A stretch of DNA of 64,000 nt from Brachycybe producta (taxonomy: Eukaryota; Arthropoda; Diplopoda; Playtdesmida; Andrognathidae), in the NCBI GenBank assembly GCA_036925085.1, contig JAUPFP010000070.1, positions 593,001 through 657,000 of the forward strand. The letters are read 5' to 3'. Positions 8,159 through 62,881 of this stretch are shown one piece after another. Position 1 is the stretch's first letter. The number at the start of each line of letters is the position of its first letter. Both the position numbers and the translations under genes were made by a program. A model generated the notes under the pieces. It was given only the letters and a program-made list of their open reading frames with translations, ran no database searches and was not told the origin of the DNA.

Positions 8159-8410
8159 GCCTGGGACACACTATGCGTCGAAACAGGCAATTAGAAATCG
8201 GGACGAACAGAAGTTGGCTCCGCCCTTTGTATGACGACCGGCAATTTCTAATTGGTTGGTTATGTAGTCTGACGTCACATGCTCTCCGTCCTTTTCAACG
8301 TCAAACCACACAACAAACCAATTTAGAAGTTGCCGTTCGTCATACAAAAAGCGCAGCTAACTTCTGTTTGTCCCGATTTCTAATTGCCTGTTGCGTCGAA
8401 TGATAGTTTG
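8159..8410. mobile_element. TTAA-type MITE family S (left part), split by A
   Basis: Begins right after TTAA (8155-8158) with GCCTGGGACACACTATGCG, the terminal style shared by several TTAA families. It is split at TGCGTCGAA by a family A copy and resumes with TGATAGTTTGACACAGTGTG. A right end was not located; it may extend towards the TTAA near 8817. Confidence 0.6.
8183..8391 (+). mobile_element. MITE family A, full copy with exact 9-bp TSD
   Basis: ACAGGCAATTAG...CTAATTGCCTGT, flanked by TGCGTCGAA on both sides (8174-8182, 8392-8400). Order within: GC box (GGCTCCGCCC), inverted CCAAT, CRE-like TGACGTCA, a second GC box (TCTCCGTCC variant), CCAAT, then the closing arm. The duplication proves insertion into family S. 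Confidence 0.96.
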
Positions 8411-8664
8411 ACACAGTGTGTGACCGTGAGACGGATGTCAAGTGTCAGATGCCGAGCGTCCAACGTTCGACATTGGAAAGTGAGGGGGTGGGGGCGTATA
8501 TTGGGGGAGGCATTCGAGCAGGTGTCGGTTTTCTTTGTCGTGTGTCAAAAGGGCCCCTCCAACATTGGAATGTGCTGACCCCACCATTCGTGACTTGGTC
8601 ACGGATAGACGGACCGGGTTCATCATCATCATCATCAATTGCGAACGTACAAGTAGCCTACTGG

Positions 8665-8767
8665 TAGGCTTGCCATCCGTCCTCCTTTGTGGAGGACAGT
8701 CCTCCATTTGGACATTTCTTCCGAATGGAGGACTGTCCTCCACAAAGGAGGACGGGTGGCAAGCCTA
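8665..8767. mobile_element. MITE family E, copy 1
   Basis: A 103-bp near-perfect palindrome: TAGGCTTGCCATCCGTCC and its complement at the far end, with nested GGAGGACAGTCCTCC repeats (8691-8705) mirrored after a short spacer. Flanks CCTACTGG/CCTTCTGG match at 7 of 8, suggesting an 8-bp duplication. Frames of 76-101 codons crossing it on both strands reflect the palindrome. Confidence 0.88.
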
Positions 8768-8775
8768 CCTTCTGG

Positions 8776-9843
8776 TAAATGTTGGAAATAGTTTAACGTT
8801 GAACACATAGGTGTGTTTAAGGTTTTATTTGATAGTTAAATTTGCACATTTAACTAGCATTTTAGACATTGTCCGTACAAAATGTCTAATACAAGAAACC
8901 AATCTGCAAAATAACACTTTTATTGATGTATTTTGCAAATTGTCTGAAGCGCCACTAACTAGTCATTGTGCAAATTTACAATCAAAAACTTTAAAGAATT
9001 TTTTTTTACTTAAAAGAACGAATTTTCTATACATAATGATGCAATTGTGGAGCATTTCGCATATTGCCTGATTTACTACCGTATTCTGCAACACATTTAC
9101 TAGGAATTTTCTGTTATATTTTTATAAAATGACTGAACTGTTTCTTAAATATGTTACTGTTCAGTTTATTAGTCGTCATTTTTTGCTATGATTTTTAAAA
9201 CTTTAATGAAAAACAGGTAGAACTTCAATTATAAAATATTGACTATAAACGCGGCATGAATGTGTATTTTTGTGTGTTGTGTGCCAATTGGATAATTTTT
9301 TTATTATTATTATCAATTTGATAATGTGTATTTTAGTTTTATTTTTCTAGTTCCTGGTGGATCATAACTTTATAAGAAACGACGATATAAATTTCACTTT
9401 TTTCTGCTCTTGTTTTTCTATATTTTGATCCATTTTTGTTATCCTTCAGGGGTGGGGGGGGGGGGGGGGAAGGAGGGTCTCTCATTTTTGGAGGTTATTG
9501 TTTTTTTTTTCTTTTTCTACCTGAATATCGTCTTCAGTTTTTACCAATGGGGTTTATGTTTGGTCAGGTGTCTTTAATTGATTTCTTTGTTCATTCGTAT
9601 AAATACGATTGTGTTTTACTTCAGTCTGAACGATTATTATAGTATTTTTTAGCTCGTGGCCACAAAATTGTTTCTTCAAGAAGGAAGACAAAATATTGGC
9701 TATTTTAATAATGTTTTCATATTTTTTGATAGAAGAGATCTTAAATTGATTTTATTGTTATTTGTTTGGATTTTTAAAAACTTATTTTTTTTTTGTTATC
9801 CTGCAAAAAAAAACAATGGACGAAAAACATTAAATATTTTACA
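8776..9843. other. AT-rich spacer, no gene
   Basis: Frames of 63-86 codons occur (8811-9071, 9436-9642, 9656-9847) without recognisable domains. A 16-G run lies at 9454-9469. No transposon ends recognised. Confidence 0.45.
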
Positions 9844-9989
9844 ATAGAGACCAACAAAGAAAGCCTATGGGCAAGTGGACTTCATTGGGTTTTTGGTCTT
9901 TGTGGGCCTGGTGGGTGCTTGAAAAAAAACACAGACATGGGCTTTGTGGGGGCTGATGGTGAGCTTTTATAAATAATCAGTGGGTTTTG

Positions 9990-10610
9990 TGGTGCGCATG
10001 GGCCTGGTAGGCTTTGACCTACTGGGCTTTACGAACCTGGTGGGCTTTATAAACCTGGTGGGCTTTATGAACCTGTTGGGTTTTATGAACCTGTTGGGCT
10101 TTATGGACTGGGTGGGCTTTACAAACCTGATGTGCCTTATGAACCTGCTGGGCTTTATAAACCTGGTGTCCTTTATAAACCTGGTGTGCTTTATGAACCT
10201 GGTGTGCTTTATGAACCTGGTGTGCTTTATGAACCTGATGTGCTTTATGAACCTGGTGGGCTTTATGGACTGGGTGGTCTTTACGAACCTGGTGTGCTTT
10301 ACGAACCTGGTGTGCTTTACGAACCTGATGTGCCTTACGAACCTGCTGGGCTTTATAAACCTGGTGTGCTTTACGAAACTGGTGGGCTTTATAAACCTGC
10401 TGGGCTTTATAAACCTGGTGGGCTTTATAAACCTGGTGGGCTTTATGAACCTGGTGGGTTTTTTATAAACCAGGTGGGGTTTATAAACCTGGTGGGCTTA
10501 TGGACCTGGTCGAGTTCATGAACCCGGTGTGTTTTATGAACCCTAGTGGGTTTTATAAACCTGGTGGAGTTTATGGGGAGCTTTATGGACTCAGTGGACC
10601 TCATGAGCTT
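9990..10610. repeat. 18-bp minisatellite array
   Basis: About 33 tandem units close to GGGCTTTATAAACCTGGT, with alternate units TATGAACCTG and TACGAACCTG. Because 18 is a multiple of three, two frames stay open: 162 codons (9980-10468, repeating LVGFIN-like) and 129 codons (10132-10521, repeating GLYKPG/VLYEPG-like). Units after about 10450 slip by a base, which breaks both frames. Degenerate GGGCCT-rich flanks extend from about 9844 to 10770. I treat it as non-coding. Confidence 0.9.
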
Positions 10611-11609
10611 TGTGGACCTGGTGTGTTTTTTGTTATAAAAACTAAATCCAACAACCAATTTTGTGAGCATATGGAAATTATGGTGCGTTTCAAATAAACG
10701 TAATGGGCCTTATTGGTGTTTGTGTTCTTATAGGCTTGGTGAGTGTGTGGGCCTTATAGGCTTGGCTCAATAGTATTGTAGGCTGTGCCACAATTTTATA
10801 CAAAATGTAGGATATGTATTTTACATCATGGTTTCATAATTTTATTATGTTAAGTTTATCGTCAGTATTTCACGATGCCATCTTTCTAGATGTATGTGTT
10901 GTAACATTGTATGTACGGTAGTGTAATAGCGAAATACAAGACTATAAACGCTGCATTACTGAAGAAAGAGAGAAACTTCGCTTATGAAAATTTCGATTTA
11001 AAAAAAATGACAAAAATAAAAGACAAAAAGGCAAAAATATATGATTCACTTAAGTGTGTTCTCTTGTTCTGTGTGTGTGGTGGGGCCATTAAGACAAAAC
11101 TCTTATTTCCAAGCCAATTACGGATGTAAACAACAAGTTCATGGTAAAAAGCGATTTTCTCTTCTTTTTTTGGGAGAGAAGAGGGGGGGTTTAGCGTTTT
11201 TCTCTATGTGTCTCTCGCTAGATGGGAAGTTTTCGAACAAAAGCAAGCAACCAAAGCAGCATGTAATTACCGAAACTGCTGTAGGCCTATGCATAATATG
11301 TATGTATATATATATACTAAGTTCTCTTTTGCAAAGAGCACAAATGAGAATTTATGCTAATTTTGTTTCCATTCTCTGAATATATTTGGAACTTCTCTCT
11401 TTTGTAACCATTGCTCATTCATCATCTAATTTCTATTCTCTTTCCCCTTCCTTTTTTTTCCCCGTTATCCATTAGACCTACAATTACACGCCACTATGTA
11501 TATATCTAAATGCATAACTAGTAGAAAAAATAGCTATTCAGAAATATTTGTAGTTTGAATTTTGTTCAGAATTCTAGAGATAATAGCTCTAGCTTTTTGA
11601 TTTTTATTA
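10611..11609. other. Spacer, no gene
   Basis: The first 150 bases are decayed minisatellite flank. The rest is AT-rich. A 112-codon frame at 11041-11379 shows no recognised domain and mixed low-complexity content. Confidence 0.45.
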
Positions 11610-11616
11610 GTTTTTG

Positions 11617-11970
11617 CTTAAGACTATATTTACTTTCCTGGACTGGCAACTAACTTCCTATTGTCTCTATGTTAAGGCGTTGCATGACTTCTCTAAGGCG
11701 GAAGTGCTGACGGAAGCGAAGCCAGCTTCGTCTGGTGGTATTATCTTAGCCAAAGTCTCGTTTTTGTTATCTATTAGACTATTACCTTCTGATAGGTAAT
11801 AAATAGTCTAAGATAAAACTATACACCCTCTATAGATACAAAATGAACTCGTCCTAAACGTGACACCAGTTCGAAATTTAATTTATCGTATTCTCACTAG
11901 AGGCGCTGTTACGAAAACGACGCCGCATATCTGTCGAACACAAAATTTCGGGAGTTACCAGTCTAGGAAG
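11617..11970. mobile_element. MITE family B, copy 2
   Basis: A 354-bp uninterrupted copy. Ends CTTAAGACTATATTTAC... and ...CCAGTCTAGGAAG, with TGGACTGGCAACT and its complement inside. The 7-bp GTTTTTG duplication (11610-11616, 11971-11977) matches the length seen at copy 1. A short inverted repeat lies in the centre (TAGACTATTACC / GGTAATAAATAGTCTA). The transposon superfamily is not clear. Confidence 0.9.
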
Positions 11971-11977
11971 GTTTTTG

Positions 11978-12542
11978 AGTATCGTTTTATGACGTCATAA
12001 GTATGTGACGTCATTTTTCTGTGTTTGCTGTCTGCATTGCAATTAGCTGCATGATCGTAACGAGAGCATTAAATGCTATAAGTCTATGTAATTTAATCTA
12101 GAACATTGCGCAAATCTAGCTGCCTTTACTGAAGGACTGTATTTTCTACAAAACAAACAGTAATACTAAAATATTCATTTTTACTTGTTTGTTTTTTCTT
12201 TTAAATTCTTAGCTTTGAAATTGATTATAGTCATTCCTTCATTTCTTCTTCTTTCCAGTTAGTTAGTTGGTTTTTATTGTAAAGTTTTCTAGTATAGGTC
12301 TCCCACTGATATTTTAATTAGTTTGTCATTTTTTTTGTACACCATCATAAATGAATGAATGATATTATTTAAGGAACGTACAGGGTGTGTTGAACACATT
12401 TTCATTATCAGTCATTGTAGATTATAATGGTGCAACAATGGTGTGGAGCTGTGGAGGCTCTTTTGGTTACTTATCTTTTTAAAATGACAATAAGATAACT
12501 TTTTTAAGTCAATATATAAAAAAAAGACTTTCCATCTTTTGC

Positions 12543-12575
<33 letters not shown>

Positions 12576-12649
12576 GAGAAGCCACAGTTAACTATGAGCG
12601 CATATTTTTTATTTCATGCAGATATAAGTATTAGTGACGTCATATGGTC
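11978..12649. other. AT-rich spacer with (AAT)n
   Basis: Contains an (AAT)n microsatellite at about 12546-12573. No gene or transposon end recognised. Confidence 0.5.
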
Positions 12650-12795
12650 TTGAGTGACTGAACGAATATACGGAAACCGTTTTAGTTTCTAAAACACTTT
12701 CAAGTTTCTTTTAATTTTGCTCTTCAGAAACATAAGAATAATCAAAGAGTTCGAAAATCAGCTGTTCATAAACCATCTTACGGAATAGGTGTTTT
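12650..12795 (+). mobile_element. MITE family H, copy 5 (right arm)
   Basis: GTTTCTAAAACACTTTCAAG, a T-rich stretch, ATAAGAATAATCAAAGAG and AAACCATCTTA follow the H right-arm order. The left arm is not seen. Confidence 0.6.
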
Positions 12796-14084
<1,289 letters not shown>

Positions 14085-14995
14085 AAAATTTAGGCCTAGA
14101 TGGCGCTTCATCATGAACTAGCGCCAAATGGAACAAATCCTAAACTGAATAAATGTTACCCTTTTTTGGATTTTGTTTAATTTAGTTGGCGGCTCGGCTC
14201 GTTCAGTTGGGTATTTGTTCAATTTAGCACTTGTTCATTTTGGTTGCATTTTGTCTAATTTGTTTAATTTGTTCAGTTTGGTGTTTGTCTCATTTGGAGG
14301 TCATTCAGTTTGGTGCTTGTTCAATTTGAAGCTTATTTAATTTGGTGTTTGTTCAGTTTGGCGCTTATTCAGTTTAGTTCTTGTCCAATTTGCGCTCATT
14401 CAGTTTGTCAATCTGGAGCTTATTCAGTTTAGCATAGTTCAATTTGTAGCTTATTCAGTTTGGTGTTTGTTCAGTTTGGCGCTTATTCAGTTTAGTTCTT
14501 GTCCAATTTGCGCTCGTTCTGTTTGCCATTTGTTCAATCTGGAGCTTATTCAGTTTAGCCTTGTTCAATTTGTAGCTTATTCAGTTTAGTTCTTGTCCAA
14601 TTTGCGCTCGTTCTGTTTGCCATTTGTTCAATCTGGAGCTTATTCAGTTTAGTTCTTGTCCAATTTGCGCTCATTCAGTTTGTCAATCTGGAGCTTATTC
14701 AGTTTAGCATAGTTCAATTTGTAGCTTATTCAGTTTGGTGTTTGTTAAGTTTGGCGCTTATTCAGTTTAGTTCTTGTCCAATTTGCGCTCGTTCTGTTTG
14801 CCATTTGTTCAATCTGGAGCTTATTCAGTTTAGTTCTTGTCCAATTTGCGCTCATTCAGTTTGCCATTTGTTCAATCTGGAGCTTATTCAGTTTAGCATT
14901 TGTCCAATTTAGAGCTCAGTCAGTTTGGCGTTTGTTTCATTTGGGAACTTGTTCAGTTTGGGCGCCTTAACAGACGCCTCCTAATTTCAGCTGCT
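14085..14995. mobile_element. Minisatellite-bearing foldback element U, copy 2
   Basis: Same design as the 1488 element but larger. The left end has GATGGCGCTTCATCATGAAC and CGCCAAATGGAAC; the right end has the inverted counterpart (TTTGGGCGCC, AGACGCCTCC). Between them about 800 bp of tandem units near TTATTCAGTTTAGTTCTTG and CCAATTTGCGCTCGTTC form a higher-order array with a longer period, much of it repeated almost exactly (compare 14480-14560 with 14590-14660). No exact target duplication was found. Confidence 0.85.
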
Positions 14996-15753
14996 TCTTT
15001 AAAAGAAATATTAAATATAAATTGAAGGATTTGTTTTTATCGTTTCGCACGAAGTATTTTATTTTTTTAAACTTAGAAAATAAATTTATTAAAAATAAAA
15101 TTAATTCAAACTTATTCTAATTTGACTTAAAAAAACGAAGAAGCTTTTTTTTATATAATTAATTTAATCAGATTTGAGTTAAGAGAAATGAAGACTTTTG
15201 TTAAAAAAGTGACAAATAAAATTCTGTTTCTTATTTTTGATATAATTATAATAATGAACTTTAAAATCTGATAAGATTTTTTTTAAAAGTAAAAGAAAAA
15301 TGATGAATAAGTAGAAGAAGACGTGAGTGACAAACATTTCAAACATCTGTTTAGAAGAAAATCTTCAATGTTAGTGAAAGAGATTTCATCTAAAAAAAAA
15401 AGTTATGGTCCTCCTTTTTTGACTACTTACTTAGTTACTAGACTTGTCATTTTTTTATTGTTCGTTATGTAATCATAGCTTTAGGTGTGTGTTGTTCTAC
15501 CTTTACTACAAGGTGAGCTTCAGGCAGTTTTTGAACCTGAAAAATGATACATCTGTACTTTGAACCATCTGTTTCGAAATTTTTCTTTTTATCTTCTTCT
15601 AACTAATGTGGCTCACATTTTAACTAAATTAAGTGGATTTTTTTTAAGTAAATTTGATAAGTTTGCATAACGGATGTTTATTAGAAAGTAACTTTAAAAG
15701 CAATAGTATTTTCAAGACAAGATTTTAAAAAATAAACTTTTTTATGGCAGTTA
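14996..15753. other. AT-rich spacer, no gene
   Basis: Single-copy-looking AT-rich sequence. Nothing recognised. Confidence 0.5.
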
Positions 15754-15755
15754 TA

Positions 15756-16305
15756 CCTTTTTACACACATGAGCTAAATGAATTCAAATTAAATGAGTTT
15801 AGGTGAATTATACGGAATCCAGTTAAGGACATGAACTAAATAAAAATTGACTTTATTATTAATACACACATATTTTAAATTAAAATACTAAATTAATAAT
15901 TTTGTCAATAGTTTATATATTTATATTTAAGTATTAACTCAATATTTTGAGATTATTAACTGAATAAATTGAATTCGAAATATTGTCTATTTGCCCTTCA
16001 TGGGGGTTCTGTACACACTTGATAATTTAAATGCATTTAAATAATAAACGTATTCTACAGATCCCCATGAAGGGCAAATAAACAATATTTCGAATTCAAT
16101 TTATTCAGTTAATAATCTCAAAATATTGAGTTAATACTTAAATATAATAATATAAACTATTGAAAAAATATGGATTTAGTATTTCAATTTAAAATATTAA
16201 TAATAAAGTCAATTTTTATTTGGTGTTCATGTCCTTAACTGTATTCCGTATATAATTCACCTAACACATTTAATTTGAATTCATTTAACTCACGTGTATA
16301 CAAGG
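15756..16305. mobile_element. Double (head-to-head) family C element
   Basis: A 550-bp palindrome: an inverted C copy from the TA at 15754-15755 to about 16009, joined to a + orientation copy ending TATACAAGG at 16305. Both arms retain the internal landmarks, including TTGCCCTTCATGGGG and CCCCATGAAGGGCAA. The joint falls where the left arm loses its terminal TTTAAATGC segment. The right flank is TT, not TA. Confidence 0.85.
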
Positions 16306-16604
16306 TTTTTGGTCAATTTTTAAATAATGTTTTAAATTTTGCAGAACATTCTTTTAAAATTGACTTTGCAGCTCAAATTTTAAAACAAGTCAATGAAAAC
16401 AGGCCGTTAAACAAAAAAATTATATATTTTTGAACGTCAACCATGAAAAAGTTTATTTTAAATTATATAATAATTTGATAAATAATAATAATATAATAAT
16501 TTTTGACCATTTAACCAAACTATTCTAGTTTGTAACGATATTTAAAGTTTTTTTTAATTTTGAGACACCTTAAATTGATTATAATGCCAAAGTAGGCAAT
16601 TTTA
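16306..16604. other. AT-rich spacer
   Basis: A short H-like trace (TTCTAGTTTGTAACG near 16523) is too weak to call. Otherwise nothing. Confidence 0.45.
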
Positions 16605-16612
16605 CAAATTAG

Positions 16613-16894: not shown

Positions 16895-16902
16895 ATAATT
16901 AG

Positions 16903-17316: not shown

Positions 17317-17354
<38 letters not shown>

Positions 17355-18619: not shown

Positions 18620-18813
18620 ACAGTCATTTGGAAATCGGGACGAACACAAGTTGGTTCCGCCCTTTTTATGACGACTGGCAGCTTCTAATTGGTTGGTTAT
18701 GTAGTCTGACGTCACATGCTCCGCCCTTTTCAACGTCGAACCACGCAACAAACCAATTAGAAGTTGCCATTCGTCATAAAAAGGGCGGAGCCAACTGAAG
18801 TTCTTCCCGACTT
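18620..18813 (+). mobile_element. MITE family A with exact 9-bp TSD, clipped right arm
   Basis: Flanked by CGTTTATAG (18611-18619, 18814-18822). It carries both GC boxes, both CCAAT motifs and a CRE-like TGACGTCA. The right arm stops at TTCTTCCCGACTT, lacking about 12 terminal bases, yet the duplication is intact, so the loss is internal to the end or this derivative moved with an abnormal end. Confidence 0.93.
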
Positions 18814-22404: not shown

Positions 22405-22613
22405 ACAGGCAGTTAGAAATCGGTCAGAACCTCAATTGGCTCCACCTTTTTTATGACGACCGGCAACTTGTAATTGGTTTGTTGTGTGGTTCGACGTTGA
22501 AAAGGGCGGAGAACATGTGACGTCAGACTACATAACCAACCAATTAGAAGTTGCCGGTTGTCATAAAAAAGGGCGGAGCCAACTGAAGTTCTCCCCGATT
22601 TCTAACTGCCTGT
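22405..22613 (-). mobile_element. MITE family A with exact 9-bp TSD
   Basis: Flanked by CCTTGATGA (22396-22404, 22614-22622). Ends ACAGGCAGTTAG and CTAACTGCCTGT. Variant arms (TCGGTCAGAACCTC, TTCTCCCCGATTT) mark it as the same subgroup as the copy at 28718. It carries CRE-like TGACGTCA, CCAAT and GC boxes. Confidence 0.96.
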
Positions 22614-28016: not shown

Positions 28017-28497
28017 ACCTATTAAGTTAAATGCATTTAAATATTAAATATGTTCTACAGAAGCCCTGTTAAGGACAAACAAACAATATGTCGAATTCAA
28101 TTTATTACAGGCTTTTAGAAATCGGAACGAACACAAGTTGGCTCCGCCCTTTTTATGACGACAGGCAACTTCTAATTGGTTTGTTGTGTGGTTCGACGTT
28201 TGAAAAAAGGGCGGAGCAGGTGACGTCAGACTACATAACCAATAAATTAGAAGTTGCCGGTCGTCATAAACTTGTGTTCGTCCCGATTTCTAAACGCCTG
28301 TCAATTTATTCACTTAATATTTCATAAGTCAATATTTAAATATATTAAGTTTGTATTTTCAATATAATGAGGTTAGTGTAACAAAATATTGATTTAGGAT
28401 TTCAGTTTGTTCAGATATTAAATAATGTTAATTTTATTTGGAATTGGTCCTTAATGGGGCTCCTTATATTTCAACTAAACACAAATAAATGCACTTG
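28017..28497 (+). mobile_element. MITE family C, copy 4, split by A
   Basis: The left C segment (AAATGCATTTAAATATT, GTTCTACAGAAGCCC, AACAATATGTCGAATTC) is interrupted at CAATTTATT by a family A copy and resumes with CACTTAATATTTC. The right part retains GGTCCTTAATGGGGCTCC, the older-looking form of the internal motif. Both termini have decayed. Confidence 0.85.
28107..28301 (-). mobile_element. MITE family A nested in C, exact 9-bp TSD
   Basis: Flanked by CAATTTATT (28098-28106, 28302-28310), which is itself family C sequence, so the order of insertion is certain. Ends ACAGGCTTTTAG and CTAAACGCCTGT. One GC box near the right arm is lost in a small deletion. Confidence 0.96.
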
Positions 28498-28717: not shown

Positions 28718-28924
28718 ACAGGCAGTTAGAAATCGGGGGAGAACTTCAGTTGGCTCCGTCCTTGTTATGACGACCGGCAACTTCTAATTGGTTTGTTGTG
28801 TGGTTCGACGTTGAAAAGGGCGGAGCATGTAACGTCAGACTACATAACCAACCAATTAGAAGTTGCCGGTCGTCATAACAAGGGTGGAGCCAACTGAAGT
28901 TCTCCCCGATTTCTAACTGCCTGT
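28718..28924 (-). mobile_element. MITE family A, exact 9-bp TSD
   Basis: Flanked by AATGCAGAA (28709-28717, 28925-28933). Same subgroup as 22405 (CGGGGGAGAACTTC arm). The CRE-like site is altered to TAACGTCA; the two CCAAT motifs remain. Confidence 0.96.
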
Positions 28925-29361: not shown

Positions 29362-29544
29362 ACAGGCAAGTAAAGACAGTAAGATACAGTCTCTTTTATG
29401 GGTGCCGGCAACATCTAATTGGTTTGTTATGTGGTCTGACGTCACATGCCCCGTCCTTATCCATTTCCAATTGGTTGATATTTCGTCGGACGTTCATAAA
29501 AGGGCGGGGCAAACGACTGTATCTTCCTGTCTTTACATGCCTAT
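29362..29544. mobile_element. MITE family A3, copy 2
   Basis: ACAGGCAAGTAAAGACAG and the complement of CTGTCTTTACATGCCT, an inverted pair. The core has CCGGCAACATCTAATTGG, CRE-like TGACGTCA, and paired GGGCGGGGC / CCCCGTCC. Same layout as the 5219 element. No clean duplication. Confidence 0.85.
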
Positions 29545-31401: not shown

Positions 31402-31607
31402 ACAGGTAGTTAGAAATAGGTGAAAAATTCAGTTGGCTCCGCCCTTGTTATGACGACTGACAACTTCTAATTGGCTGGTTATGTAGTCTGACGTTGAAAA
31501 GGGCGGAGCATGTGACGTCAGACTTCATAACCAGCCATGTAGAAGTTGCCAGTCGTCATAATAAGGGCAGAGCCAACTGAAGTTTTCACCTTTTTCTAAC
31601 TGCCTGT
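31402..31607 (-). mobile_element. MITE family A, 8-bp TSD
   Basis: Flanked by CTTTTGAT (31394-31401, 31608-31615), one base shorter than the usual 9. Ends ACAGGTAGTTAG and CTAACTGCCTGT. CCAAT motifs have become CCAGC in part, but the CRE-like TGACGTCA is kept. Confidence 0.93.
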
Positions 31608-32751: not shown

Positions 32752-33199
32752 GCTGGGCACGAATTGGGGAACCCGATGAGTGAGCAACCAGGTACCAAAT
32801 CATGATCACGTGATAAGCAAGTGGTTGCTAGCACACATTGGTACAGGCAATTAGAAAACGGGATAAACAGACGTTTGCTCCGCTCTTTTAATGACGTCCG
32901 CAACTTCTAATTGGTTGGTTATGTAGACTGACGTCACATGCTCCGCCCTTTTCAATGTCGAACCACACGACAAACCAATTAGAAGTTGCCGTTCGTCATA
33001 AAAAGTGCGGAGCCAACGTCTGTTTATCCCGTTTTCTAACTGCCTGTCACATTGGTTGCTTGTTCTCTCTGCTCAGACTCAGAGGCAACATCCACTTACT
33101 ACTGTTGCCTACTACCAATTTGGTGGTGTGTCTGCAAAAGTGTCACCAACAACAGTTGCTGGTTGTAAGCTTGCATTGTTGCCTAATTTGCGCCTGGCC
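32752..33199. mobile_element. MITE family Q, copy 2, in tandem and split by A
   Basis: Starts directly after the shared TTAG with GGCTGGGCACGAATTGG and ends GCGCCTGGCC before TTAA (33200-33203). A family A element interrupts it at CACATTGGT. Two Q copies side by side sharing one target is unusual. It may reflect insertion of one copy into the site flank of the other. Confidence 0.85.
32843..33047 (+). mobile_element. MITE family A nested in Q, exact 9-bp TSD
   Basis: Flanked by CACATTGGT (32834-32842, 33048-33056). Arms vary from the usual (AAACGGGATAAACAGACG, matched in the other arm), so the two arms have changed in step. CRE-like TGACGTCA intact. Confidence 0.96.
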
Positions 33200-47162: not shown

Positions 47163-47445
47163 AGCTGGGTTCATACGAGTCTAAGTGAATTGATCAACTC
47201 ACTTGACTAGTGTAAACCCACTTTAAGACAGCCATTTTGAAATCGGGACGAACACAAGTTGGCTCCGCCCTTTTTATGACAACCGGGAACTTCTAATTGG
47301 TTTGTTGTGTGGTTCAACATTAAAAAGGGCGGAGCATGTGACGTCAGACTACATAACCAACCAATTAGAAGTTACCGGTCGTCATAAAAAGGGCGGAGCC
47401 AACTTGTGTTTTTTTCCGATTTCTAAATGCCTGTAGTTTAAGGGG
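47163..47445. mobile_element. Small hairpin element split by A
   Basis: AGCTGGGTTCATACGAGTC, AAGTGAATTGATCAACTCACTT and AGTGTAAACCCACTTTAA form a 66-bp palindrome of the TTAA-family style, then family A enters at ACTTTAAG. The host is too short to classify further. Confidence 0.6.
47228..47434 (-). mobile_element. MITE family A, near-exact TSD
   Basis: Flanks ACTTTAAG/AGTTTAAG (7 of 8). Ends ACAGCCATTTTG and CTAAATGCCTGT. CRE-like TGACGTCA, two GGGCGG boxes and two CCAAT motifs all present. Confidence 0.93.
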
Positions 47446-48315: not shown

Positions 48316-48462
48316 AGCAGTTGGGCGCAGCTGGAAAAGTTCGTTCTGATTGGTTATTTAGGTTTGTTATGTGTTTGATTCTGGGTTTGTTATTTATTGC
48401 TCTGACGCTCATAAAGGGCGGGGCCGACAAAATTTTACTGCTGGGCAGAGCTGCCCGTCTGT
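48316..48462. mobile_element. MITE family A2-like, copy 2
   Basis: GCAGTTGGGCGCAGCTGG against GCAGAGCTGCCCGTCTGT, inverted; interior CTGATTGGTTATTTAGG, GACGCTCATAAAGGGCGG. Immediately followed by another A2 copy. Confidence 0.75.
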
Positions 48463-48467
48463 AGAAC

Positions 48468-48610
48468 ACAGGCATCTCTGCCCAGCACTTAAATTTTGTT
48501 TGCCCCGCCCTTTTATGAGCGCCAATGAATTTATAACTGGTTTGTTACTTGGTCTGATGTCATAAAAGGGCGGGGAAAATGAAATTTTAGTGCTGGGCAC
48601 ACTTGGCTGT
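48468..48610. mobile_element. MITE family A2, copy 3
   Basis: ACAGGCATCTCTGCCCAGC to GGGCACACTTGGCTGT. Two GC boxes (CCCCGCCC, GGGCGGGG) are mirrored. Flanks GTAGAAC and GTTCTAC are inverted, not direct, because each side runs into family C sequence. Confidence 0.82.
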
Positions 48611-48672
48611 GTTCTACAGAGCCCTGTTAAAGACAAACAAACAATGTTTCGAATTGAATTAATTCACTTTCA
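48611..48672 (+). mobile_element. MITE family C fragment
   Basis: GTTCTACAGAGCCCTGTTAA, ACAAACAAACAATG and TTCGAATTGAATTAATTCAC: a left-centre C piece ending abruptly. Confidence 0.75.
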
Positions 48673-50875: not shown

Positions 50876-50943
50876 AGAAGTTGCCGGTCGTCATAAAAAG
50901 GGCGGAGCCAAATTGTGTTCTTCCCGATTTTCTAAATGCCTGT
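50876..50943. mobile_element. MITE family A, right arm only
   Basis: AGAAGTTGCCGGTCGTC, AAAAGGGCGGAGCC, TTCCCGATTTTCTAAATGCCTGT in order. Only 68 bp remain; no left arm. Confidence 0.88.
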
Positions 50944-51586
50944 CTCTCACTAGTCATTGCATGAAGACACTATTTTGTGTCCTCCAGCAGGTGACCAGTA
51001 TCCATACCTGTTGCCAGTACCAGAGACAACCCATAAGGTTTTTCTTTGATGGACAACAGCACTCCAAACCAAATCTAGTCATCACACACAATGTTGGAGC
51101 AATTTTTTCAAGTTTGTCGTTGTTTGAATGATTTTACTTCCAACATTTCCAGACAATGAATAAAAAAAGTCTCCCAATCCTATGATACAAACAAATCTTA
51201 AATGAAATTCGTCTCTCTTTCTCAGGATGATGGTTTTTTTTTTGTGTTCATTTTTAAAAGTTATCCATACGTTGTTGGATATATAAGTTTTTCAAACTGA
51301 TTATTACAATGACAAATAGGAACATAATTATACCATGTAGTTATTTATTACATTTTATTGTTCCAATTTGTGTAACTTGCTTTTTAGATAATAATGCTAT
51401 AAGTTGTTTTTTTAGGTTTTTAGTTTTTCGTTTCATACTTTTATGAGCAACAAAAAAAGGAATGAAAATCTCTCTTTTATTTAAAACCTGTAATTATTTA
51501 TTCGCGGAAATGATTATTCTGAAAAGAAATAATCTCTCTCTCTCTCCTCATATAATATATTTTTTATTTAAAAAGTATAATTTTAT
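50944..51586. other. Spacer, no gene
   Basis: A 72-codon frame at 50913-51131 starts inside the A arm and has no recognised domain. AT-rich beyond. Confidence 0.45.
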
Positions 51587-54085: not shown

Positions 54086-55134
54086 GAAATTCAGTCGAGT
54101 GTTGTGAACTCACGTTTTTTCTTCTTCTTCGTGTTTTATGTAATAAAAGATGTATTATTTTTTATGAAAGTAAAAAAATGACCTTTTAAAGTCAAGTTTT
54201 TAAAGTGAACTTTAAATATCCACATTTATCTCTTTTTTTTTTTTTTTTTTTTTTAGATATTTAATATTTATTTTAAAACGCTTCGATGCTTTTTCAGATA
54301 ATTTTTCTTCTTTTTTTAGTTTTTCTTTGCAAAAAAAATCTCATTTTTTTGTTAAAATCGTTTATGTTCTCATAAATATCTTCTCATTTTTATTTGATTG
54401 GTTTATGAAAGTCAAGAAGAAGAAGAAGAAGAAGTTGTTGTCTTGCGAGATATGACAGAATTATGTTCGGAATGTTGACATCAAACATCTTTACGAGATT
54501 AGAAAGAAAAGGGAATAAAAGTTCCTCAAGAAAAAGAAAAAATACATTTTTTTGAAAGATGGGGAGAGCACAGTGTTTTTCACTCATTCGTGAAATATTT
54601 TCATTTAAACGACATTTAAAAAAAAAAAGGTTAAGAACCACTTCAACTTCATTCATTTATTTAATTTGACTGATAAAATAGACAAAAAATCTTAAGTTTC
54701 TAGATTTTTTTTTCGACGATATTTTTGAAAAATGTTCCAGTTTTCACTTGATATTTTAAAATTGTATTTGTAAAAATGTATTCTAGTTCATTTTGAAACT
54801 TGAGATTAGAATTTTTTTTAATTGCTTGTTTTAAGCAAACTATACATAGAGGTATCTCAACCTCATATTAAGAAAATCATTAGTGGAGTGAGCGTTTTAA
54901 TTGTATATACAGCCTCTTTGCTTCAAGGATCTTTTTATTTTCCCTTTTACCTCCCTCCTCTTGTTTTTCTATTAATCTTTATGAAATGAACCACCTTTTA
55001 TAAGGTGTAATTTTATTAACACAAAAATGACACTTTTTGAAAGCAAAAGACTGACTGACTGACTGGAGGCTTAACAATACATAAAATGTTAAGTTCATTC
55101 ATTGTAAGTTTGCTCTGGGAGAGAACCCCATCCT
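54086..55134. other. T-rich spacer, no gene
   Basis: A run of about 23 T at 54232-54254. A minus-strand 88-codon frame (54390-54656) is leucine-rich from GAA repeats. No gene. Confidence 0.5.
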
Positions 55135-55138
55135 CTAA

Positions 55139-55536
55139 AGCCTTGTTTTCACGGTGGCGATAGTTCTTTCGTGAGAGTAGCTGTCATGATAGTTGCGATA
55201 GTTCACTCTCACGGTAGCAAGCAACTGTCTTACACACGTCTTGAAGTAACGTGATAGTTCTGTCACATGACAAGTGTGACGTCTACTTAACAGATACCAT
55301 TGAGTCAACAACAATGTTGCCTCTCTCCCTCCAGAAGCCAAATTTCCCTACAAAGTGGATATTTTCCTACAAGCGGTCACTCAACAACTATTACTATTGC
55401 GACAGCCCTATCAACTATCTAGTCAAGCTAGATAGTGCGATAGTGACTATCACGTGGTCTGCACGATGATAGTTCTCGCGATAGTTACTCTCATGACAGC
55501 AACTATCGTGAAAACTATCATTGTGAAAACGAGGCT
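55139..55536. mobile_element. TTAA-type MITE family M, copy 2
   Basis: Between CTAA (55135-55138) and TTAA (55537-55540). Ends AGCCTTGTTTTCACGG and GTGAAAACGAGGCT. Long arms built of GATAGT / ACTATC units with GCTGTCATGA. Frames in the middle (55135-55469) are incidental. Confidence 0.85.
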
Positions 55537-55540
55537 TTAA

Positions 55541-55936
55541 GCTGGAACTTCATACCTGCTACCTTGAGCGTAGCGTCTGCGACTAGTGACTAGCATAGCA
55601 ACTAGCATAACAACAGTAAGTCAGTAGTCACTGGCACACACTACATATGCGCGCTACACCTATAAACATTTTGGGCGTGTCTTCATGGTGTGTGCTGTCA
55701 TAAAAAATGGCGTCGAAGACGCCATATGCAACAAAATCACGTCTCTGATTAGTTATTGGGTAGCGACTTGAAACGTTTGCGATTTGAAGCTTCTGTTTGA
55801 ACAGAAGCTTGGCGACTGAGTAGCAAGTCGCGACGCTTTGACAAGTTGCTAATAGTTGCTTGTATATGGTATGAAGACGCGCATGTGCGCTGATGCTCGC
55901 TCGAGGTAGGTCACTCGACGTCGCGTGAATGAAGTT
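55541..55936. mobile_element. Hairpin MITE family N, adjacent to M
   Basis: GCTGGAACTTCATACCTGC follows the M element's TTAA directly; ATGAAGTTTAAGC closes it. The interior is CpG-rich with many GCGAC/GTCGC and ACTAGC words and a perfect GAAGCTTCTGTTTGAACAGAAGCTT hairpin at 55787-55811. The right side lacks TTAA. Confidence 0.65.
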
Positions 55937-57004
55937 TAAGCTTTGACAGGCTTATTGATTCAAAATAGCATAACTCTGCTTAATTCCGCGTGAGATGATG
56001 TTCCGTGGAGGTGTGCAAGATCTGCAAACAATTCATATTCTAATTTATTGACAACTGTGCGAGTTATTTACAAGAAAACAGCAAAAAAAAAAACAAATAG
56101 AAAATTACCAATGAAACGAATTTTCTATAGACCCCTTGTGCTCTTAAGTAGCAGTGGCGCCATTCATTGGCTGAACTCAGCAATTTCACAAAATGCTTTA
56201 TAGTTGAGCTACCTGTATGTACGATGTACATATGTAAATATATTGGTTTTAAGGGTGCATTTTTGTTTTGCTTATTTCATGTTGCGTTGATAAAAAAAAC
56301 CCACCCGTTGAGAATTTAGACAAGTATTAAATTAAAAAAAGAAAACTTTAAATATGTTTTTCGGAAGCAAAAACATTTTTAAATGGATCTTCTTCATCAT
56401 CATCATCATCATCTTGATAATATTTAAATTTAATTTCACTTTAAGAAAGTGATTTAAAAGGAGAGAGAGAGAGAGAGAGATTTTTTAAAGAATAGAAAAA
56501 GACAAACTAGAAAAGGAAAATTTGGTTCATTTTTTTCCTCTTGTTTTTTAAAATGACCACACATTGTGCTTTTGACTTTATTTTAATAATTAATATCGTG
56601 CTCAAAGGGAGGTAAGAGGAGATGACGGGGTTTGTTTTTAAGTTGGTCCTGTCAAAACAGAGGAGAAAATCATTCTAGAAAATTAGATGGGTTTCATTTG
56701 AAAAGGAAATTACATTTTTCAAGCTAATTAACAACTTTTAAAGAGTTTTATTTTAGAAAAAAAAACTTTTGTTTTAAATTATAAAGGCAATGAATGAAAG
56801 AAAGAACGGAAGAATGGGGGTAGATTCAGTTGATAGTCTTGTCACAATAAAGTGACCCACTCAAGTCTTAGGACCCAAATTCAAAAAGAAAACTTTGCAT
56901 TTTAACTTCAAATTGATTGAACTTTCTAAATGAAGTTTCAACATGAAAGAAAAAAAAAACCTTCTATGGGGGGGGGGGGGGGGGTATTCAAGTAAAAAGG
57001 GGTT
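55937..57004. other. Spacer, no gene
   Basis: (CAT)n at about 56394-56413, GA tract at 56461-56480, 18-G run at about 56967-56984. GTGGCGCCATTCATTGG at 56154 is a fragment of the CC/L type of repeat. No gene. Confidence 0.5.
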
Positions 57005-57388
57005 ACATATGTTGGAAACTTGTCAAACTGACATAAAAAGTTTATTTTAAAATGAAAAAATATACCCCCATTAAGTGATTGAGCTACAATTCAAGTTTCT
57101 AAAACACTAAAATGTTCTCTTAATTTTGCACCTCTGAAAGACAGAATACTTTGGTTTTCTGCCATTTCACAGGCAAAACAGAAGAGAAATTGATATTTTT
57201 CAAAATAAACTTTTTATAGACAAAATTGAACTTTACTTAAAAGTTGGATCTTTTTTCAAACTAACATAAAAAGCTTATTTTAAAAAAATATCAACATGAA
57301 AAATACTCTTTAAGTGATTGAGATACCCTTCTAGTTTCTAAAACCCTTTCAAATTTCAATTAAATTTGCTGCCTGAAGAATAGAATAG

Positions 57389-57540
57389 GGGAAGAATCAC
57401 ACACACTGAAAATAAATCCCATTGAATTTCACTTTGTAAGACATTTTACCAAGAAGCGCCATATATATTATTTGAGTGAAAAGGAACACAGGAAGTTTAT
57501 TTCTATTTTCTAGTGGTTTTTCAGCGTATGTGATTCTTCC
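57389..57540. mobile_element. Hairpin element J nested in H
   Basis: AAGAATCACACACACTGAAAA and its complement TTTTTCAGCGTATGTGATTCTT, about 150 bp apart. Lies between the H centre and family I. Target site unclear. Confidence 0.7.
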
Positions 57541-57545
57541 GTTAA

Positions 57546-57935
57546 GCCTGGAACACACGCGGAATTCCGCCAAGGAAAAAGAAAATAGAAAAAGGAAAAA
57601 AAAAGTCATTTTCTTTTTCTGTATCTCTGTTGTTCACACATAAGAAACAGAAAAGTAATGAGGAAAGTTGTGGGCACCCTCTATTGAGCAAGAAAAGAAA
57701 CATATTTAGATCTATTGCCAAAATGGATTCCAATTTGCTTTTTTTGTCATGCATGTCACGTCATGCTTCTTTCTGATTGGTGGAAATTTGAACGGAATAT
57801 TTTGAGAACGGAAAAGGTTGAGCTTTGTTCAACTCATTTTTAATGAATTTTCCGTTCACTTTTTATGGAAAATTGTCTCATTTAAATATTCTGTTATTTA
57901 TTTTCTGAGCGGAATTCCGCGTGTGTGTTCCAGGC
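57546..57935. mobile_element. TTAA-type MITE family I, copy 1, nested in H
   Basis: Exact TTAA on both sides (57542-57545, 57936-57939). Ends GCCTGGAACACACGCGG and complement. GCGGAATTCCGC is palindromic in each arm. TTAA plus these ends suggests a piggyBac-like or Kolobok-like element; neither is proven. Confidence 0.92.
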
Positions 57936-57986
57936 TTAACCAGAGTTCGAGAGGCGGCGTTTGTTTACACTTTAAAACCGCCTTAA

Positions 57987-58386
57987 GTTTGAAGTTCAAG
58001 TTTTTGGTTTGTAAACTTCTTTAAAAGAATCACATAAAAGTGGTTCCTCCTCCTTTTTTTTTTTTAAAAAAAACTTTTTCGCTGCAAATAAATTTTATTG
58101 TTTTCTATATATTATCTCTTAAAACGGATAAAATTACCAACAAAAAAAAAGAAGTTAAAAGTAGTATTTTCCATTTTTTTGTAGCTGAAATTAATTTACT
58201 GTGTGTACTGAGTGTATTACTACATAATAATCTCTTAAAATAATTATGGGATAGTTTCGGCCGGGGTAGGTTGCATTTTCTTTTTTATCTAACCAAGTGG
58301 TAAATATATAAAGAAAAAAGAGAAATTCTATCATGCCTGACCACTTATTTATTATTATAACTTCTTGTTGGTTTATTTCAAGTTAT
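57987..58386. other. AT-rich spacer, no gene
   Basis: Frames of 67-68 codons run over this stretch with no domain. Nothing recognised. Confidence 0.45.
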
Positions 58387-58641
58387 ACGGAGCCCTGACG
58401 AGGACATGACAACAACAAAAATTGTTTAAATTAGAAATTTCGACTTTGAAATATTAATGGCCACAAAAGTTTTAAAAAAATGGTTCTTATGAATCACATT
58501 AAATCGAATGACTCGATTCTGATTAAAAATCGGGGGGGGGGGGGGAATATATCCGATTCGATGAAATTCATTTTTTTTTAATAAAATCACTTTTCTATTT
58601 TGTGTTAATTTCTTGCTTTGATAGATTACTGACCTTCGTAA

Positions 58642-58846
58642 ACAGGCAATTAGAAATCGGGACAAACAGAAGTTGGCTCCGCCCTTTTTATGACGAACAC
58701 AACTTCTAATTGGTTGGTTATGTAGTCTGACGTCACATGCTTCGCCCCTTTTAAACATCAAACCACACAACAAACCAATTAAAGTTGCCGGTCGTCATAA
58801 AAAGGGGGGAGCCAACTTGTGTTTGTCCCGATTTCTAATTGCCTGT
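58642..58846 (+). mobile_element. MITE family A, exact 9-bp TSD
   Basis: Flanked by CCTTCGTAA (58633-58641, 58847-58855). Ends ACAGGCAATTAG and CTAATTGCCTGT. One CCAAT has lost a base (ACCAATTAAAG). CRE-like TGACGTCA kept. Confidence 0.96.
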
Positions 58847-59190
58847 CCTTCGTAAAGTCATACAGCACATTCTTTTACTCTACAATTAACTATACGCTTA
58901 AACGATTACATTTTCTAAGAACAACTTTACACCATTGGGGGGGGGGTCTTACTTCCTGTGACGTCATTTTTGAATTTGTATAAGAGACTTCAACAGTGAA
59001 ATTTAGAAGAAAAACAATTTTTTGTGAAGAAAAAAATCGAATGGTTAATTATGTTAGGAGATTGAATCGATTCATACGATTTATCGGAAACCTTAAAATT
59101 GATTCAATTTATACGATTAATCATAACATTCATAAGTTCATAACTAAGAAATCGATTCTTTAAATAATCAAATCGGAATCGGACAATCCC

Positions 59191-59281
59191 ACAGGCATTC
59201 CGCCCTTGTACGCTCCCTCCCCTATTACCAAATATCAACCAATTGCAAATTGAAAAGGGCGGAGCATGTGACGTTGCCTGT
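59191..59281. mobile_element. Short A-related MITE (A4), near-exact 9-bp TSD
   Basis: A 91-bp element: ACAGGCATTCCGCCC to GTGACGTTGCCTGT. Flanks GACAATCCC/GACAATCTC match at 8 of 9. It keeps CCAAT, one GGGCGG and half the CRE, so it is a trimmed A core with A-like tips that still moved. Confidence 0.88.
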
Positions 59282-59520
59282 GACAATCTCTACTTTGAAA
59301 CTTGATATTTCCATTTTTTATTCATTATTTGTGCTGCTGTTACTGACATCGAAAGGATGTACATGTAATACAGTATGTTATCGGCTATCATCATTTATAC
59401 TGATTTCTCCTACGTTAATATAATGGCTGATGACTCGGTGATGAGTAAAAAGTAGAGAGAGAAATGAGCTAATTAAGGATCTAATTTCGAGATACAAACT
59501 TGAAATTTCGATTTTGATTG

Positions 59521-59726
59521 ACAGGCGATTAGAAATCGGGACAAACCGAAATTGGCTCCGCCCTTTTTATGACGACCGGCAACTTGTAATTGGTTGGTTG
59601 TGTGGTTCGACGTCGAAAAGGGTGGTGCATGTGACGTCAGACTACATAACCAACCAATTAGAAGTTGCTGGTCGTCATAAAAAGGGCGGAGCCAACTTCT
59701 GTTCGTCCTGATTTCTAATTACCTGT
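59521..59726 (-). mobile_element. MITE family A, TSD decayed
   Basis: ACAGGCGATTAG to CTAATTACCTGT. CRE-like TGACGTCA, CCAAT pair and one GGGCGG box present (the other GGGTGG). Flanks TTTTGATTG/TTTTGGACC share only the first five bases. Confidence 0.92.
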
Positions 59727-59757
59727 TTTTGGACCGTGAGCTCATCGCAGCTCCGTA

Positions 59758-60920
59758 CAAGTCAAAGTGAAGATGAGTTAACTTTTTCAAGTTTGAGATT
59801 TTTTTTCTCTCTTTCTTCTTATGACCTGTCTTTATCTTTATGCCTTAAAGTTATAATATAACCGTAATTTATATGCGTATTTTTTTTGTCTCTATACATG
59901 CATATTATGACAACTAACAAATGGGCAACAGAAGTAATTTTTTTTAAAAAAAAAAAACGGGTTTTTCCTCATACATGTGTATTGGGTTCTTGTGTTTTTC
60001 TTCTTATGGGATGTGGTAGGATTTGGTACACAAGATCCTCTCTCTCTATCGTTCTTGTCTTTTGTGTCGGTTTTTGCAGACTGCTTGGCGCCCTCAATGC
60101 AACAACAACAAAAAAAATCCCTCATCAGGTTACAAGAAAATAGGCTTTTTCATTTCAGGGTGAGGAGAAGGTTTTACTGGTTGTGAGGGGAAGGGGGGGG
60201 GGGGGGGGGTGAAGCTGTATAATAACTTCTTTTAGGGGTGGGGGTAAAAGAACGAATTTACTAAAAGAGAGAGAGAAAAAAAATAAGTAATCGGAGGACA
60301 GTTTAAGGACAAATGTGGGGTTTGTGAAGTTTTTTTTTTGAAAATAAGTAATTTGTTTGGTAAAGTTGTTACATTCAAAAATTTCTCAAGAACTACTTAA
60401 AAAATTTTTTTTTTTACTAAATTTTCATAATTGTCTTTCTCTCTCTATCTATCTATATTAAATTCATAGCCAAGGTCTTTCTCTCTTTCTCAAGATGGCT
60501 TCTAAATGTTGGTCACAGTTACGCTATTTTTGCAAAAAATAATCAATCCTCTTGTATTTAACAATGAATACAAAATCGTGAATCTTGAATCATTTTTTTT
60601 TCATACAGAAATTTCATGGTTTTTAACATAAATATAGTTTGCGAAACCAGATGTGAATGTTTGGCCAATAGATGGCACCACCTCTACTTAGAGCTGCAAT
60701 CATAGGAATTATGAATACTATAAATTAGAATATTGTATTTAAAAAAATATATATAAAAACGATCTGTTATTTTTACTGATGCATAGTTGTTGTCTTTTCT
60801 TTCCAAATTTATTTAGAGTAAGTAGACTTTGGAATTCTCTTCTAGCAACATAGTCCTGTTTTAGTTACGAATTCAATATTCTAAATCTTGTCTAAATGAC
60901 AATCATTTATGATTGTCTAA
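59758..60920. other. Spacer, no gene
   Basis: 17-G run at 60193-60209; CTAT repeat near 60450; GATGGCACCACCTCTACTTAG at 60671 matches 29099. Frames of 69-85 codons (59886-60186) overlap on both strands and lack domains. Confidence 0.5.
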
Positions 60921-60922
60921 TA

Positions 60923-61212
60923 CTTAGTACACACACCTGAACATTTAAATGCGTTTAAATAATAAATGTGTTCTACAGAGCCCTGTGAAGGGCAAACAAA
61001 CAATATATCGAATTCAATTTATTCAATTAATAATCTGAAAATATTGAGTTAATACTTAAATATAATTATATAAACTATTGACAAAATTATTGATTTAGTA
61101 TTTTAATTTAAAATGTGTATTAATAATAAAGTCAATTTTTATTTGGTGTTCATGTCCTTAACTGGATTCCGTATAATTCACCTAAACTCATTACTCATGA
61201 CTGTGTACAAGG
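60923..61212 (+). mobile_element. MITE family C, copy 8
   Basis: TA at 60921-60922 and 61213-61214. CTTAGTACACACACCTG to TGTGTACAAGG. Lacks the TTTAATTTGAATT segment near the right end. Confidence 0.92.
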
Positions 61213-62167
61213 TATTATACCCTCTGACACATGGTTCTCTTTTCTATTAAGAGGAATAGAACGATGTTAGAAAATAAGAATAAAGAGACAACATTAATGC
61301 TCACTCTCTTGACAACATTTTTCTATCTAACATGGAGTTTCACTACCTCTAGTGTTTGATTTGGATGCAGAAATATATAGCAGAAGGGGTTTAAGTTCGA
61401 CCATCTAGCTTTTTAGTTTTATTTGCAGCTTGGTTTTTTTTTCTTCTGCAATGTGTATAGTGGTTTTTTTTTCTTCTTTCTTTAAACAATGTTTTCTTAG
61501 ATTCCTGTAAGAAAGAAAAAAAAAAAAAGGAGGCCAAAGGGGGATTTTTCTTTGAGTAAGGGGTGTGGTTTGGCTGAAGAAATTCTAGACTGCCTGACGC
61601 CTTATGTACGAAATATATATTATTGTTGTCCTGCCTGAATGAAAAAAAAAATGCCTCAATAGTGCCTTGTAGCTATTGCACCTGTTGATGCATCATCATC
61701 CAATGTGTTGTTGGTATATTAGTTATTTTCAGACTGAGATATTATAATTTGAAATATATTAATACACAAACAATAACAACAACCCAACCAATATATATAC
61801 ATATTATTATTATTATAGATTAAGTTGAAATTGAGAGTAGAAAGGAAAAGAAAAAAAGAATGACAAAGAAATAGTTTGGAATTAATTCGAGCAAACCCAA
61901 CATAAAGAAGAATAGCCAATGGCAAAGACGGAAATTAAAAGATATTTTGTTTCTCTCTCTTTTATATGTGTGTAATTTCTCACGCAGTAAAAGTGTAAAT
62001 GATTGGGGGGAGCGAACATCCTTCAGGTGCCTGTTGGTCAGTTGGTGTCAAAATAAAACATTAATATTAGGACATTGTGAGTTTTTATCATCGGGATTGT
62101 TTTGTACAATTATTTAAATAGTAAACTCGTCGTGCAAACTGCACAAAACGAAAAGGACTACATACAA
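61213..62167. other. Spacer, no gene
   Basis: AACATGGAGTTTCACTACCTC at 61328 echoes AACATGGAGTTGAGTTACCTC at 29674, a trace of an uncatalogued repeat. (ATT)n near 61805. No gene. Confidence 0.45.
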
Positions 62168-62240
62168 GTAGGCTTGCTACCTTTTTCCTCTTTTGTGAAG
62201 GACAGTTTTTCATTTGGAGGAAATGTCCTCCGACCAGGAC

Positions 62241-62416
62241 ATAGGTTATTATGCCCAGCATTAGAATTTGTTTTGCTCCGCTCTTTTATGACGTCAGACC
62301 AAGTAACAAACCAATTAGAAATTGAAAAGGCGGAGCATGTGACATCAGACCAAGTAACAAACCAATTCGAAAAAGGCGGCGCAAAAGAAATTCTAATGCT
62401 GGGCATAATTGCCTGT
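62241..62416. mobile_element. MITE family A2, copy 4, nested in E
   Basis: ATAGGTTATTATGCCCAGC to GGGCATAATTGCCTGT. Two direct copies of a GACCAAGTAACAAACCAATT block replace the usual inverted core. Flanks ACCAGGAC/ACCAATAC match 6 of 8. Confidence 0.88.
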
Positions 62417-62508
62417 ACCAATACCGTCCTCTACGAAGGTAAACATGTTCTCCACACAATAAATTGTATAAAAACTTAAATACGTTCGGGGGGTCCTGGC
62501 CGGAGGAC

Positions 62509-62713
62509 ACAGGCATTTAGAAATCGGGACGAACACAAGTTGGCTCCGCCCTTTTTATGACGAACGTAACTTCTAATTGGTTGGTTATGTAGTCTGACGT
62601 CACATGCTCCGCCCTTTTCAACGTGGAACCACACAACAAACCAATTAGAAGTTGCCAGTCGTCATAAAAAGGGCGGGGCCAACTTGTGTTCGTCCTAATT
62701 TCTAAATGCCTGT
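62509..62713 (+). mobile_element. MITE family A nested in E, exact 9-bp TSD
   Basis: Flanked by CCGGAGGAC (62500-62508, 62714-62722). ACAGGCATTTAG to CTAAATGCCTGT. CRE-like TGACGTCA, paired GC boxes and CCAAT motifs intact; among the best-preserved copies. Confidence 0.97.
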
Positions 62714-62881
62714 CCGGAGGACAGTTCTTCCGAATGGAGAACTGTCCTCAGGGTGGCAAGCCTAACTACAAAGGTCAATGTTAAATGACTTCCAAGTAAT
62801 TAATCATAATTACATGAACAATCATATTTACCAAATTGGTATCGCCATTACTTAACCTAAATAAAGCAGAACCTTGATTAA

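Follow-up and report, generated by a model that had tools for sequence, protein, structure and literature searches.

A palindromic foldback-type miniature transposon carrying CCAAT, GC-box, and CRE words in the millipede Brachycybe producta

A 64,000-nucleotide stretch of the genome of the millipede Brachycybe producta (hereafter, the window; GenBank assembly GCA_036925085.1, contig JAUPFP010000070.1, positions 593,001 to 657,000, forward strand, or G000:C70:593001-657000 in the numbering used here) contains many copies of a short palindromic repeat, Family A. The repeat carries CCAAT/ATTGG, GGGCGG/CCGCCC (GC box), and TGACGTCA (cyclic AMP response element [CRE]), which are binding words of NF-Y, Sp/KLF, and CREB/ATF proteins. 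The initial annotation of the window called Family A a miniature inverted-repeat transposable element (MITE) and proposed that it has spread bidirectional promoter-like modules. Here, we report an analysis of the window and of its assembly (295.3 Mb, 442 contigs). Family A is a palindromic foldback-type MITE, that is, a non-autonomous DNA transposon, and its words are probably inherited letters of a core that was copied.

Twelve full or nearly full copies, in line with the twelve or more first counted, lie between positions 8183 and 62713, together with three fragments:

8183..8391, plus strand: Family A copy, TGCGTCGAA duplicated at both flanks
18620..18813, plus strand: Family A copy with a shortened right end, CGTTTATAG at both flanks (read by eye)
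22405..22613, minus strand: Family A copy, duplication CCTTGATGA
28107..28301, minus strand: Family A copy with a deletion across one GC box, duplication CAATTTATT
28718..28924, minus strand: Family A copy with a mutated CRE, duplication AATGCAGAA
30503..30688, plus strand: Family A copy with a left-arm deletion and a mutated CRE, duplication TGAAGACCC
31402..31607, minus strand: Family A copy without an exact 9-bp duplication
32843..33047, plus strand: Family A copy, duplication CACATTGGT
47228..47434, minus strand: Family A copy, ends set by BLAST match
58642..58846, plus strand: Family A copy, duplication CCTTCGTAA
59521..59726, minus strand: Family A copy without an exact 9-bp duplication
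62509..62713, plus strand: Family A copy, duplication CCGGAGGAC
6995..7121, minus strand: Family A fragment, TGACGTCA intact at 7024
7457..7582, plus strand: Family A fragment without the center
50876..50944, plus strand: Family A fragment

Exact 9-bp target duplications flank 8 of the 12 copies; two copies have no exact one, and two were unparsed. Word order and spacing are near-constant among the parsed window copies, as the initial annotation had it and as is expected for copies of one element. The words do stand on both arms, as described there, but seldom as a complete set: all six are intact in only 3/12 window copies (and in 8/60 copies from elsewhere in the genome). By word, the right CCAAT is intact in 12 window copies, the left ATTGG and the CRE in 10 each, the middle GC box in 9, and the left and right GC boxes in 7 each. 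The window contains 20 exact TGACGTCA matches (0.47 expected from 100 dinucleotide shuffles, largest shuffled count 3). The full or nearly full copies account for 10 of them, a fragment for 1 (at 7024), and sister families for 3 (5295, 29437, and 62289), and 6 fall outside all of these (1214, 11990, 12006, 12635, 32415, and 58959).

The Family A consensus is 206 bp long, with tips reading ACAGGCA...TGCCTGT and perfect inverted arms (1 to 75 and 132 to 206) on either side of an asymmetric 56-bp middle, so the description of copies that read almost alike on both strands fits the arms but not the middle. Words start at positions 69 (ATTGG), 134 (CCAAT), 88 (CRE), and 38, 102, and 164 (GC boxes). 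The CRE, taken at first to be central, has its midpoint at 91.5, 12 bp off the element center at 103.5, which is spanned instead by the third GC box (102-107). For the strand from 62515 to 62715, a single hairpin with a folding energy of -69.8 kcal/mol was predicted, compared with an average of -21.0 for shuffled sequences (z, -17.3).

Genome-wide, a strict tip-middle-tip pattern was found at at least 896 places and a 26-position core pattern at 6480 places, with no match to either in backward-read controls. The latter corresponds to one per 46 kb, so the density of about one copy per 5 kb proposed for Family A holds locally in the window but not across the genome; the core pattern matched 9 times in the window versus 1.4 predicted from the genome mean. 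With BLAST at 1e-12 on other sampled DNA, 89.4 kb of sequence next to A copies held 22 A-like copies, 43.2 kb from Mutator-like element (MULE) loci held 4, and 13.7 kb around RTGACGTCAY sites held none. The best-scored copies are 92 to 99% identical to the consensus. Among the 60 copies from elsewhere, 26 had an exact best 9-mer duplication when small shifts were allowed, and in 14 others it was off by one; with fixed ends, the 30 best-matching copies gave 8 exact 9-bp duplications. Rfam gave no match at the gathering threshold within the window.

Ordinary animal MITEs are short, lack an open reading frame (ORF), and have inverted ends, target duplications, and many copies. Family A likewise is short, ends in conserved inverted tips, is flanked by target duplications, and reaches a high copy number, and the MITE label first given to it therefore stands; the long inverted arms, capable of forming a hairpin, place it with foldback-type elements. 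It differs from ordinary animal MITEs in being almost entirely a single palindrome and in having an internal core in common with sister families.

If the words served as promoter modules, with NF-Y, Sp/KLF, and CREB/ATF proteins binding the core to make bidirectional promoters or enhancers, or with the core kept for transcription or open chromatin of the element lineage, they might be expected to change more slowly than the rest of the element, a check that the initial annotation had put forward and that was run here. Sixty copies were fetched from the first 100 listed of the 896 places, all on contigs C1 and C2, using anchors (the tips plus AACCACAC) that overlap no word, and the words were not considered; the 30 best-matching copies, unoriented and picked for closeness to the consensus, were set aside when decay was analyzed. 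Substitutions were counted at 18/592 CCAAT, 63/1077 GC-box, 26/476 CRE, and 546/8494 other non-anchor sites. When the word positions were shifted along the element, the rate was as low or lower in 17/179 shifts for CCAAT, 109/179 for GC boxes, and 107/179 for CRE. Thirteen subfamily-diagnostic sites (11 in the de-duplicated set), defined from the same copies, were then excluded. Before base matching, non-CpG sites even changed faster in the GC boxes (interval, 0.008 to 0.050) and in the CRE (interval, 0.001 to 0.049) than non-CpG sites elsewhere, at least partly because of base content. After base matching, word and other sites had 62/1073 versus 102/2379 substitutions at G/C outside CpG, 16/592 versus 97/4355 at A/T, and 29/480 versus 79/984 at CpG, with zero inside every bootstrap interval. 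The CRE was intact in 37/60 copies, and 94 of the 153 8-mers scored (CRE included) were intact more often.

A left flank shared by 9/60 copies led to a de-duplicated set of 50, from which 10 copies were dropped (8 of those 9, one of L107/L109, and one of L072/L073), and the result stands: words decay like base-matched sites. Word-specific constraint within Family A was thus rejected in both sets, and neither displays the constrained words of a host-type bidirectional promoter. The promoter interpretation of the initial annotation finds no support in this, its only sequence-based test: of the two refuting outcomes named there, the one on decay, with words wearing at the pace of the arms, was seen in the 60 copies and again in the 50. 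The words within Family A bear no clear mark of selection, and the sequence does not require a promoter reading. Most copies would have been dead on arrival, and host function would be absent from them.

Family A belongs to a clan of at least three families (A, B, and C) with common tips and a common core but different subterminal arms, and this clan of palindromic MITEs is real and recently active. The core, of ~80 bp, reads ATTGG, 14 bp, TGACGTCA, 6 bp, CCGCCC, and is inverted in A, direct in B, and tandem in long C. Copying of the core in these arrangements explains why the words recur in each arm and across numerous loci; the CCAAT, GC, and CRE words would be letters inherited with it. Both sisters have the ACAGGCA tip; Family B is 183 to 195 bp long, and Family C is 142 bp and longer. 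Four places in the window belong to them:

29362..29544, plus strand: sister family B copy
5219..5404, plus strand: sister family B copy, decayed
62240..62416, minus strand: long family C copy with tandem core
48403..48669, strand not assigned: family C-like copies with mutated CRE

Ten copies each of B and C were sampled from high-scoring places and are therefore biased towards the query. When A and B are aligned, both tips are identical (7/7 each), and the two families agree at 15/27 left subterminal, 19/29 right subterminal, and 74/81 core positions. Shuffled sequences did as well in 624/2000 cases for the left subterminal part, which amounts to no similarity, and in 7/2000 for the right, which indicates some. 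Within the core, the words are identical at 25/25 positions and the spacers at 49/56 (Fisher p 0.09). The core, taken as a block, has changed less than the arms, and words and spacers are indistinguishable at these numbers. The second core copy lacks an intact CRE in both A and B, which argues against a promoter module. All 10 fetched C copies have their near flanks in common, and C thus multiplied there by riding along within a larger repeat; ten copies of that repeat (L140-L149), whose near flanks contain CCGTCATAAATGACGG, carry the 142-bp C element at one and the same position.

Several points weigh against inheritance of the words as mere letters. In the 50 de-duplicated copies, CCAAT A/T sites came near slower decay (3/294 versus 85/3628; interval, -0.024 to 0.000), as did word CpGs (22/400 versus 69/868; interval, -0.051 to 0.003). 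The greater likeness of the core than of the subterminal parts between A and B may reflect constraint at the level of the lineage, or exchange. Of the hints that lean towards promoter modules, the identity of the words between A and B is matched by the subfamily-diagnostic sites, which fall at 0/36 positions in words versus 11/143 elsewhere (p 0.12); both are weak and not significant. Together with the unslowed decay within the family, they leave the promoter proposal quite improbable.

The block-like conservation also bears on an explanation in which the core serves as a series of binding sites for the transposase and its host-factor words are accidental. The whole core, spacers included, is common to the families, while the number and order of its copies vary, as such an array might. 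The analogy is with Galileo, the target duplication of which is 7 bp (9 bp in Family A) and which is far larger. Galileo and Family A alike have long, internally repetitive inverted arms; Galileo is reported to belong to the P-element superfamily, and multiple transposase sites are proposed within its arms (PMC3688188). By this analogy, a binding-site array would be a possible account of the core, if a somewhat doubtful one.

The CRE is in excess beyond the clan. With the window clan copies masked, TGACGTCA ranked top in over-representation among the 256 palindromic 8-mers in 149 kb of sampled DNA (38 places versus ~1.1 expected under a second-order model). Additional clan copies make up 13 of these places; at the 25 that remain, the word is preceded by a purine in 22 cases and followed by a pyrimidine in 21. 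The corresponding pattern, RTGACGTCAY, a full CREB/ATF-type site, occurs at 12,385 places genome-wide versus 2,926 in the backward-read control, and it is not matched by the CRE in the consensus of A, B, or short C. Among 20 stretches around listed RTGACGTCAY sites on C1 (L039-L058), 12 have two or more TGACGTCA and 8 have two within 80 bp, counts that are not a fair sample because the stretches were picked from the listing, partly for close sites. Two pairs share similar sequence (L047/L049, 517 bp; L041/L058, 44 bp), and the contexts look mostly unrelated. This abundance outside the clan could be counted in favor of promoter modules; it is treated here as a separate observation, in which the host may use the word. 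Another palindromic 8-mer, TGGCGCCA, is also highly over-represented (17 places, ~22-fold; ~7280 and ~11900 in the window, and in sampled flanks) and belongs to a repeat with a CGCTAGAGGCGCCACTT-like sequence at position 7280, presumably similar to a CTCF site.

Family A would have spread in trans, by the transposase of another element. Its 9-bp duplication fits the Mutator superfamily; 9-bp target duplications are not unique to Mutator. Solely on duplication length, a Mutator-like transposase is favored. A genome search gave 21 MULE transposase matches, and one MULE protein (727 amino acids) matched PF10551 at 4.1e-15. Eight MULE loci had upstream DNA (L125, L126, L127, L128, L150, L151, L152, and L153, with the near-identical L129 counted with L128). 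An A-type end lies just upstream in four of them (L125, L126, L150, and L151); near the L127 gene there is no more than a B-like fragment, and the remaining three have none. From the tip to the presumed first-exon ATG, read by eye, the distance is 155 bp in L120/L125 and 152 bp in L119/L126, and to the long open frame it is 422 and 436 bp, respectively. In L151, 41 bp separate the tip from the frame, and in L150 the two directly abut. L126 is A-like at its right end only, and L151 has A on each side of an 814-amino-acid ORF. If A occurs once in every 4 to 20 kb, the chance of 4/8 within 450 bp is 0.03 to 0.00007, or 0.09 to 0.001 for 3/7 with the duplicates L125/L126 counted once, for a count made after the data were seen.

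Such positions could mean that Family A is the end of an autonomous Mutator-like element, cut off with its terminal repeat and promoter, the words being those of the transposase promoter; the 9-bp duplications, the presence of MULE genes in the genome, and the ORF of L151 flanked on both sides agree with this, and A-type copies before MULE genes would also suit promoter modules. Against an origin as a MULE end, the A copies at L150 and L151 have their own readable duplications and are therefore insertions: L150 has an A inserted in an A, with AACTTCTGT at both flanks, and the A upstream of the L151 gene has its own exact duplication, GTTATAAAA. Mutator and P elements are known to insert near gene starts. 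In none of L125, L127, and L151 was a shared duplication found to enclose A and gene together, and the C tip that follows the L125 gene is part of another, larger repeat. The L128/L129 MULE family has clear ends of its own, with ACTAGCG tips and a 9-bp duplication, AAAGAAGAT, in L129. The idea that Family A forms the terminal repeat for the L125, L126, and L127 MULE genes was rejected for now, given no bracketing duplication in L125 or L127 and downstream C tips within the larger repeat; derivation from a MULE end is unlikely.

Neither the MULE and FLYWCH searches nor nine MULE loci read with their flanks yielded an element with ACAGGCA ends and a shared duplication. Among 24 FLYWCH matches, none had a MULE-sized frame (longest, 181 amino acids); they cluster on C94 and C16, much as FLYWCH domains do at the insect mod(mdg4) locus. 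Two further MULE arrangements were seen. The copies at L128 (3014-7186) and L129 are ~4.2 kb long and 99.5% identical, with a 796-amino-acid open frame, and L153 is a near-perfect 4.5-kb inverted duplication (99.8%) with MULE open frames of 1003 and 1088 amino acids.

In the open-licence literature, nothing was found on a MITE with these three words. The Tm1 Mutator/Foldback family of root-knot nematodes is reported to have foldback-like variable inverted repeats, MITE-like members, 9-bp duplications, and internal repeated motifs (PMC3169594), all features with counterparts in Family A. The published Tm1 tips are CGGTTAA/CCTACCC, with 14-bp repeats, in contrast to ACAGGCA and the ~80-bp core of Family A (PMC3169594), and some Tm1 members have a Phantom-type transposase, whereas no transposase was found for Family A in this analysis.

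The window also has minisatellite arrays, at 14272-14961, 10023-10575, and 1545-1785, with repeat units that are TTTGGCGCTTATTCAGTTTGG-like or read TGGGCTTTATGAACCTGG. COX1 was found on C442, with 10 in-frame TGA codons, read with the invertebrate mitochondrial code; further COX1 matches on large contigs (G000:C1:12697416-12698753 and C17:4027703-4029047) are probably nuclear copies of mitochondrial DNA.

The preferred account, a non-autonomous palindromic transposon with inherited words, raises the question of why, from one sister family to another, the ~80-bp core is better preserved than the subterminal arms. One highly speculative answer, to which we give very little weight, is that the shared core is a portable module under selection on element lineages and not on single copies, binding host factors in the germ line and so keeping chromatin open for mobilization. 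If so, the core would have outlived, or passed between, the arms of different families, and the genome-wide RTGACGTCAY excess would be a trace of the host factor activity that the core exploits. As Family A shows, a repeat family can mimic a field of spread regulatory modules while its words are merely inherited letters, and base-matched decay in a word-blind sample of copies is a cheap test that separates a module from inheritance.

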